From Nodosilinea sp. LEGE 07298 (GTDB lineage: Bacteria > Cyanobacteriota > Cyanobacteriia > Phormidesmidales > Phormidesmidaceae): a DNA stretch of 32,386 nt. Numbering within the stretch: the first letter of the stretch is position 1; each line of letters starts with the position of its first letter. The stretch is from contig NZ_JADEXE010000043.1 of assembly GCF_015207265.1 (NCBI RefSeq), forward strand, positions 1 through 32,386, read 5' to 3'. Below are positions 3,313-17,969 of this stretch, piece after piece. A program made the position numbers and the translations under genes. The notes under the pieces are model-generated. The model ran no database searches. It worked only from the letters and a program-made list of their open reading frames with translations, and was not told the origin of the DNA.

Positions 3313-3416
3313 TATAGCCATAGTCACGTTGGTTAGGACATCCAGAAACCCTATGAACGTTCAAACGTTTGAACGTTCATAGGAGACCTGTCTTAACCAG
3401 ACTGGCCACAGCTATA
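3313..3416 (+). mobile_element. MITE-like element, copy 1 (104 bp)
   Basis: The element begins TATAGCCATAGTCACG and ends GGCCACAGCTATA, and the two ends form an imperfect terminal inverted repeat of about 29 nt. Its centre (3350-3383) is a perfect 34-nt palindrome containing three AACGTT words at 8-nt spacing. Two further copies lie at 8063-8165 and 12172-12275 in the same orientation. There is no coding capacity. TA at both borders suggests a TA-targeting transposase, as in the IS630/Tc1-mariner group, but that is inference. It occupies part of the 363-nt gap between the metallopeptidase and pentapeptide genes; apart from the G-rich tract I see nothing else there. Confidence 0.8.
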
Positions 3417-12173: not shown

Positions 12174-12275
12174 TAGCCAGAGTCACCTGGGTTAGGACAT
12201 CCATAAAGCCTGAGAACGTTCAAACGTTTGAACGTTCTCAGGGAAACAGTCCTTACCAGACTGGCTACAGCTATA
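12172..12275 (+). mobile_element. MITE-like element, copy 3 (104 bp)
   Basis: The ends TATAGCCAGAGTCACCTGG and CTGGCTACAGCTATA match copies 1 and 2. The centre (12209-12242) is a perfect 34-nt palindrome. Its outer arms read CCTGAG/CTCAGG, where copy 1 has CCTATG/CATAGG: both arms changed together, so pairing is kept. It overlaps the last two bases of the 21-nt array and lies 25 nt from the end of the DUF3124 gene. Confidence 0.82.
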
Positions 12276-17081: not shown

Positions 17082-17969
17082 CTACTCAAACCCTCTGGCC
17101 ATCCACGGGCCAGGGTCTACGGAGATGCCATTGACGTATAGCCCCCAGTGCAGGTGCGGCCCCGTCGATGCGCCTGTACTGCCGATCGCCCCAATCACCT
17201 GGCCTGGCTGCACCACATCGCCTTCGTTGACGTCAATGCGGCTGAGGTGAATCATAATGCTGAGCACCCCCTGGCCGTGGTCGATGCCGACAGTGTTGCC
17301 GTGCAGCTCAAACCCGTCGGAGACGCGCCCGACCAAAACAATCCGTCCCGCCGCTGGGGCCGCCACCGGGGAGCCTGTAGCAGCGGCATAGTCTAGGCCC
17401 CGGTGGTAGTAGTCTTGAGCAAAGACGCCGTTGTAGTAGCGACGCACCCCGTACTGAGTCGAGGTTCGCCCAGAGGTGGGGCGCTGCATGGCCCCGTTCC
17501 AGTAGCGCTCAGGGGAGACAAGGTTTTTGAAGGCCGCTACCCGGTCAAACTCGTGCTGGGTGCCGAGGTTGCTCTGACTGGGCGACAGGGTAATGCGCTG
17601 GGTGGGAAAGTTGCGGTTTTTAAGACCCAGGGCCAGGTTGCGGGTTTCGCCAGTGCCAATCACCCGAATCACCATGCGCCCCGGTGGGTCGAGCGGGCTG
17701 GTGGGAACCAGGGCGCGGAACCGATTACCGCTGATGGGAAAGGTTGGATACTCGGTGCTGTCGTTAACGGTAACCTTAGGCTGAGTTGAGGCCGACGTGC
17801 GCGGAATGGCAATCACTGAAATGGTATCGCCCAGTTCAGGAGCATCGGGGTTGAGCACGACATCGTAGGCTTGGGCCGGGCGACCCAGCAGCACTACCGT
17901 AGACCCGGCGATCGCTGCTACTAGCAGCGATCGCCGGGTTAGCCCAGGGGTATCTCGGTTCGGCTCCAT
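17082..17969 (-). CDS. Tat-exported M23-family metallopeptidase
   Basis: This 295-residue protein starts with a twin-arginine signal (TRRSLLVAAIAGSTVVLL, residues 11-28; likely cut after AQA at 32-34), so it is exported folded. Residues 35-125 form a beta-rich N-terminal domain. The C-terminal LytM/M23 domain has zinc ligands H189 and D193 (HRGLD) and H274 in PHLHW, plus a second histidine H241 in MIHLSR. Members hydrolyse peptidoglycan cross-links or act as regulators; with all ligands present, activity is likely. The Tat motif is encoded inside a perfect 37-nt palindrome (17903-17939). The gene follows a small membrane protein gene and def on the same strand. Confidence 0.92.
   Translation of the reverse strand: MEPNRDTPGLTRRSLLVAAIAGSTVVLLGRPAQAYDVVLNPDAPELGDTISVIAIPRTSASTQPKVTVNDSTEYPTFPISGNRFRALVPTSPLDPPGRMVIRVIGTGETRNLALGLKNRNFPTQRITLSPSQSNLGTQHEFDRVAAFKNLVSPERYWNGAMQRPTSGRTSTQYGVRRYYNGVFAQDYYHRGLDYAAATGSPVAAPAAGRIVLVGRVSDGFELHGNTVGIDHGQGVLSIMIHLSRIDVNEGDVVQPGQVIGAIGSTGASTGPHLHWGLYVNGISVDPGPWMARGFE
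17903..17939. repeat. Perfect 37-nt palindrome over the Tat motif
   Basis: The left arm 17903-17920 (ACCCGGCGATCGCTGCTA) is the exact reverse complement of 17922-17939, with one centre base at 17921. Each arm holds a HIP1 octamer or its flank. On the coding strand it encodes residues 11-22 of the M23 peptidase, including the twin arginines, 30 nt after the start codon. In the mRNA it would form a very stable hairpin. Confidence 0.9.

Follow-up and report, generated by a model that had tools for sequence, protein, structure and literature searches.

How does a perfect palindrome come to lie inside a protein-coding sequence, and does it betray a regulatory function or the way in which the sequence mutated? 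The question is raised by a cyanobacterial locus in the window, i.e. the whole stretch of 32,386 nucleotides analysed here. Positions 17903-17939 on the minus strand form an exact palindrome of 37 nt, whose two 18-nt arms (17903-17920 and 17922-17939) are 100% complementary and enclose a 1-nt spacer, a G on the minus strand. The palindrome spans nt 31-67 of a 295-codon ORF on the minus strand (17082-17969), overlies a Tat-like motif and codes for TRRSLLVAAIAG plus one base. Read in the sense of the gene, the upstream (5') arm at 17922-17939 encodes TRRSLL, and the downstream (3') arm at 17903-17920 lies within VAAIAG. Each arm contains one HIP1 octamer, GCGATCGC, located at 17927-17934 in the upstream arm and at 17908-17915 in the downstream one. 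This octamer is over-represented in the window (55 copies versus a shuffle mean of 0.81), an excess that concerns the octamers of the two arms and not the 37-nt palindrome.

The palindrome and its gene

According to the ORF, the Pfam assignment and the relatives, the 295-aa product is an M23 peptidase (Pfam: PF01551, E 5.6e-30, 103.8 bits against a gathering cut-off of 28.7). Its N-terminus consists of TRRSLL followed by a hydrophobic stretch ending in AQA. We take this to be a Tat-like signal sequence, assigned by eye against the consensus, and the protein to be a putative Tat substrate; the Pfam and NCBIfam searches of the protein list no Tat-signal model. The letters, the match of the arms and the Pfam result agree with the original prediction in the palindrome itself, its coordinates, the encoded peptide and the M23 assignment. 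A 121-nt query spanning the locus matches, in its own genome, only the palindrome site and the reverse strand of that site; hence, the palindrome is single copy.

Given this peptide and the codon usage of this genome, the probability of a perfect 18-bp palindrome is 1.4e-8 for one spot that was picked after being seen. Among 400,000 simulated encodings of the peptide, the maximum is 16 of 18 pairs and the commonest value is 8. As a genome-wide yardstick, we counted perfect hairpins with arms of at least 12 nt and a loop of at most 8 nt. A sample of 0.90 Mb from the same genome (the window plus stretches) contains 44 of them, 28 with arms of at least 15 nt, versus two (both with arms of 12) in one third-order Markov simulation; the corresponding numbers for 0.40 Mb of another genome of the genus, G009, are six and one (arm 13). 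Most of the 44 (39) lie outside ORFs of at least 100 aa, and three of the five inside such ORFs belong to dispersed families. Inside ORFs of that length were also one of the six hairpins in G009 and two of the 29 in a further genome, G012. Finally, 1.70 Mb of sequence includes 95 pairs of HIP1 sites within 40 nt, 79 of which are testable (at least 4 inner pairs), and a fully symmetric interior is found in a single one of these 79, namely the palindrome studied here. Because of the simulated encodings, the Markov hairpin counts and the HIP1 pairs, the palindrome is to be regarded as exceptional and chance alone as a poor account of it, just as had been anticipated from the letters.

Occurrence among relatives

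The gene itself is widespread. A protein search yields a match in 56 of 57 genomes, which include the present one and 25 others of the genus, the weaker matches including other M23 proteins; at the DNA level, the gene is matched in all 26 genus genomes, again with the present one included. Close relatives carry the names Nodosilinea, Leptolyngbya, Phormidium and those of other cyanobacteria. In viral_contigs, neither a relative of the protein nor a copy of the palindrome core was found, and a viral origin was rejected on these grounds.

The palindrome does not share this distribution: its core pattern occurs in one of the 26 genus genomes, the present one. The first 100 nt of the gene were read in 29 relatives (in a few of the most remote ones, the position of the start was derived by extrapolating the alignment and does not hold a start codon), and none has the palindrome. 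Sixteen of them have one HIP1 octamer in this stretch, 13 have none and no gene has two; the longest perfect stem with a loop of at most 10 nt measures 9 bp and lies on a different axis. In a second set of relatives, 12 of 45 loci were read, several with start sequences identical to those of the first set, and the palindrome is present in none of the 12.

In 16 of the 29 genes TRRSLL is encoded without the palindrome. The original prediction had named relatives with the same peptide and no palindrome as the observation that would speak against a functional hairpin. For the twin-arginine motif such relatives are thus at hand; to the letter they are not, as the exact 12 residues of the palindrome peptide are encoded in none of the 29, because the downstream part differs.

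The two arms differ in age

For a comparison column by column, we used an alignment of 20 genes: the present gene, 17 of the 29 genes of the first set, from which the 12 most distant were left out, and L039 and L043 of the second set. The upstream arm has 14-17 of its 18 bases in common with each of the 19 relatives, which among themselves have an average pairwise identity of 0.91 in this stretch. The downstream arm shares 6-11 of 18 bases with the orthologous stretch of the relatives; when it is compared with their upstream arm as reverse complement instead, 14-17 of 18 agree, and this holds in 19 of 19 relatives. Since the present palindrome is perfect, the latter figure is the same as that for how well the upstream arm is conserved; the telling point is that for the downstream arm the reverse-complement match lies far above the orthologous match. 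When the downstream arm is shifted by one base, beyond the edge of the palindrome, the two nearest relatives both reach a template match of 18 of 18, versus 10 and 11 of 18 for the orthologous match. As a control, 16,578 segments of 18 nt from the 20 genes were scored, and six reach at least +4 against all three nearest relatives: three of these represent the downstream arm (template matches of 15-18), and three coincide with a single site of the gene that diverges most among the 20 (8-10).

Compared with the three nearest relatives, the present gene is changed in 7 of 18 columns of the downstream arm, in 1 of 18 of the upstream arm and in 55 of 894 overall. Its identity to these three is 0.56 in the downstream stretch (0.81 among the three themselves) and 0.88 in the rest of the gene (0.89 among the three). 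The codon alignment of the 20 genes contains no gap or length change at the palindrome. At the protein level, the core of the signal sequence reads LLVAAIAG, versus LLAAAAAG or LLGAAAVG in the nearest relatives; the I is absent from all 19 aligned relatives, but several of them have the V. On the same axis, 18 of the 19 relatives form 7-11 of 18 pairs and one forms 3. Directly at the axis, a perfect core of 7 bp is present in L008, of 4 bp in L010 and of 3 bp in L043, and of 0-1 bp in the other 16, including two of the three nearest relatives. Judged by these alignments, the upstream arm and its HIP1 are old and the downstream arm is new.

Other palindromes

Several further palindromes were observed. 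The window itself contains two near-identical perfect palindromes of 34 nt (3350-3383 and 12209-12242) of a dispersed family with the core GAACGTTCAAACGTTTGAACGTTC. This core is found in 29 copies in the present genome, 21 in G009, 17 in G013 and one each in G007 and G021, while the other 21 of the 26 genus genomes have none; the family is a patchy and perhaps mobile repeat. What seems to be a second family comprises REP-like hairpins of 33-35 nt (L097:230-264, L087:731-763 and 1712-1744, L095:9052-9084, L110:774-806 and L083:15613-15646), built from AGA, a C/T-rich part and GTTCTT, or similar, plus the complement. Their arms vary between copies and pair within each; two copies (L095 and L110) lie inside ORFs of at least 100 aa.

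Some of the palindromes involve HIP1. A perfect one of 56 nt with 28-nt arms (L130:1974-2029) is centred on the octamer and adjoins a stretch of 89 nt found again in many genomes of the genus. Positions 278-404 of the 631-nt query from this region are absent from G010, where the site seems to be empty. As it belongs to a repeat-rich stretch, part of which (278-404) is missing from G010, this palindrome was set aside as support for centring on HIP1. In G009, a HIP1-centred perfect palindrome with 25-nt arms (L164:11880-11929) is contained in a short ORF of just 100 aa; in G012, one with 12-nt arms (L207:14164-14187) lies within an ORF of 918 aa. Together with the 56-nt palindrome, these two had initially seemed to favour HIP1 as a palindrome centre. 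G012 also contains a perfect palindrome of 52 nt outside ORFs of at least 100 aa (L214:15288-15339), with a HIP1 in each arm and with runs of A and T near its ends; it may be a bidirectional terminator built around HIP1.

Origin of the palindrome

The palindrome is best read, with a probability of roughly 0.7, as the product of a lineage-specific template-switch mutation (quasipalindrome correction). In this model, the Leu and Ala codons following the HIP1-bearing RRS codons would already have made up an inverted repeat of poor quality. In the course of replication, a change of template close to the axis (17921), made by the nascent strand or by the polymerase moving onto the other strand, would have led to backward copying of about 10-18 nt of the upstream arm, followed by a return in register. 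A single step would thereby have put the upstream sequence, reverse-complemented, in the place of the downstream arm, with the reading frame kept. HIP1 would have been doubled because the copied arm held this self-complementary octamer; an A would have been changed to I, and a plausible signal-peptide core, LLVAAIAG, would have been left. The mark of such an event, a derived arm that is the reverse complement of the other, little-changed arm, is what the alignment contains (14-17 versus 6-11 of 18, in all 19 relatives). We infer that it was one event, that copying ran from the upstream to the downstream arm, and that the outcome was probably neutral.

Against a single event stands the rapid evolution of the downstream stretch: among the 19 relatives its mean identity is 0.65, versus 0.80 elsewhere in the gene. 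The second HIP1 could have been gained by ordinary point changes in this fast-evolving, Ala-rich stretch (GCG ATC GCC encodes AIA), with the flanks pairing through codon constraints. The octamer is dense in the genome (1.17 per kb in 0.90 Mb), and its spread by nucleotide substitution is reportedly named in the title of a study by Robinson et al. from 1997, which we counted in favour of stepwise change. Furthermore, several inner and outer pairs of the palindrome are already present in single relatives. Only three columns of the downstream stretch are private with respect to all 19 relatives, the base of every other column being present in at least one of them, so that most of the single changes occur elsewhere too. 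In a leave-one-out profile of this stretch, the present gene has the lowest score of the 20 (-9.51), with L020 (-9.11) and L007 (-8.84) close to it. The changes of the downstream arm are clustered, but the nearest relatives are only 87-88% identical and the branching around the present gene is weakly supported (49 and 56). In addition, the A-T pair adjoining the axis requires at least one separate change. The 7-11 pairs of the relatives resemble random synonymous encodings, and hence give no sign of a special hotspot. Set against stepwise change is the finding that even the most similar relative, with the best orthologous match of 11 of 18, differs at seven or more of the 18 positions, and that each of these changes produced the base complementary to the opposite arm. 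Also counted against it are the low probability of such a palindrome under this peptide and codon usage (1.4e-8, for a spot chosen post hoc) and the uniqueness of its symmetric interior among the 79 HIP1 pairs. We consider an origin by stepwise substitution rather unlikely; it is not rated lower because of the fast stretch, the few private columns, the random-like repeats of the relatives, their distance of 87-88% identity, the weak branching and the separate change at the axis.

The remaining explanations fare worse. A functional hairpin confined to this lineage, in mRNA or DNA, could slow early translation for folding of the Tat substrate or control expression in another way. The folding energy, whose computation the original prediction had proposed, does indicate a very stable structure: the 37-nt RNA folds with -35.3 kcal/mol (z -8.9), the 131 nt around the start reach a z of -4.0, and the hairpin at nt 31-67 of the gene covers the Tat-like motif. 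On the other side, the start codon is outside the palindrome stem in the 131-nt fold, the stretch upstream folds ordinarily (z -0.8), and a search for intrinsic terminators does not call the palindrome, so that this role was discarded. For the three nearest relatives, folding is comparable to that of shuffled sequences (z -0.16 to -0.48), and the palindrome is not seen in the relatives compared (none of 29 genes; core in one of 26 genus genomes). Conserved pairing, for which a comparison of the gene starts of relatives had been proposed, is not found in them, and a conserved translational hairpin was rejected, TRRSLL being encoded without the palindrome in 16 of the 29. The regulatory role proposed from the letters finds no support in the same counts. 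As the palindrome occurs in one genome, no covariation can be shown. A lineage-specific effect of the hairpin is possible in view of its predicted stability, which is the support for it; overall, we rate a functional origin as improbable. Still less probable is HIP1-specific recombination or inversion, or the insertion of a mobile palindromic element, even though HIP1 is present in both arms, dispersed palindrome families occur in the genome, and site-specific and illegitimate recombination at HIP1 has been reported (PMC4390886). The single copy and the absence of a gap in the codon alignment of the 20 genes led us to reject a mobile or dispersed element. An inversion of the 11 nt between the two HIP1 sites would not yield symmetric arms, and HIP1 is not enriched as a palindrome centre in 1.70 Mb: 4 of 2060 HIP1 sites are extended by at least 8 pairs versus 22 of 4545 other palindromic octamers, the latter including dispersed repeat families. 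A preference for HIP1 as palindrome centre was accordingly discarded. Of the earlier idea of a HIP1-related recombination or inversion product, the part that stands is that the downstream arm resembles the upstream arm copied as its reverse complement; recombination specific to HIP1 finds no support in these counts. An artefact of assembly or library preparation (snap-back reads) might be feared in a draft assembly of 617 contigs, but the palindrome is located mid-contig, its frame is intact, both flanks align with the genes of relatives and the signal peptide is sensible, which makes this explanation exceedingly improbable.

With the template switch as the preferred reading, the locus is a good natural candidate, from a bacterium, for the rewriting of coding DNA in one such event, with the protein change and the new HIP1 site as by-products. 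It also advises caution: a striking and very improbable palindrome within a gene need not be regulatory, and it is the comparison of relatives that separates mutation mechanism from function. A more far-reaching conjecture, to which we give little credence, is that template switching contributes to the spread of HIP1, in that the octamer, being self-complementary, would seed short fold-back copying. Fresh HIP1 sites, together with long perfect palindromes, would then arise in one step next to existing ones, and the present palindrome would be a captured example; if many HIP1 gains prove to be of this kind, this would bear on how HIP1 spreads. In the open-licence literature searched, HIP1, cyanobacteria and template switching were not found together in any paper.

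Comparison with known systems

HIP1, the Highly Iterated Palindrome GCGATCGC of cyanobacteria, is described as a sequence of little-known significance in PMC4390886. The present locus resembles that description in having the octamer in both arms and a genome rich in it. However, HIP1 comprises 8 nt and cannot alone give arms of 18 nt, and the second copy seems to be a by-product here.

The palindrome is best read as a further example of an already known mutation type, the template switch. Quasipalindrome template switching has been studied in Escherichia coli with lacZ reporters carrying an 18-bp quasipalindrome (PMC7202029). As proposed here, an imperfect inverted repeat is made perfect by copying one arm from the other; those reporters score the loss of a 4-bp frameshift, whereas the present case is natural, involves no length change and is deduced from diverged relatives. 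In Saccharomyces cerevisiae, coding genes have been altered by such events, and one arm, in REG2, was extended from 5 to 16 bp with seven point mutations (PMC8604942). Common to both are a clustered multinucleotide change in a coding sequence, perfect arms and replaced amino acids; here, in contrast, the host is a cyanobacterium, the arms measure 18 bp, the copied arm carries HIP1 and the event is deduced from extant relatives. Template switching has also been proposed as a source of stems in RNA genes (PMC8794818). A long perfect stem would likewise have arisen from one event in the peptidase gene, but unlike in those RNA genes no selection for the stem is seen.
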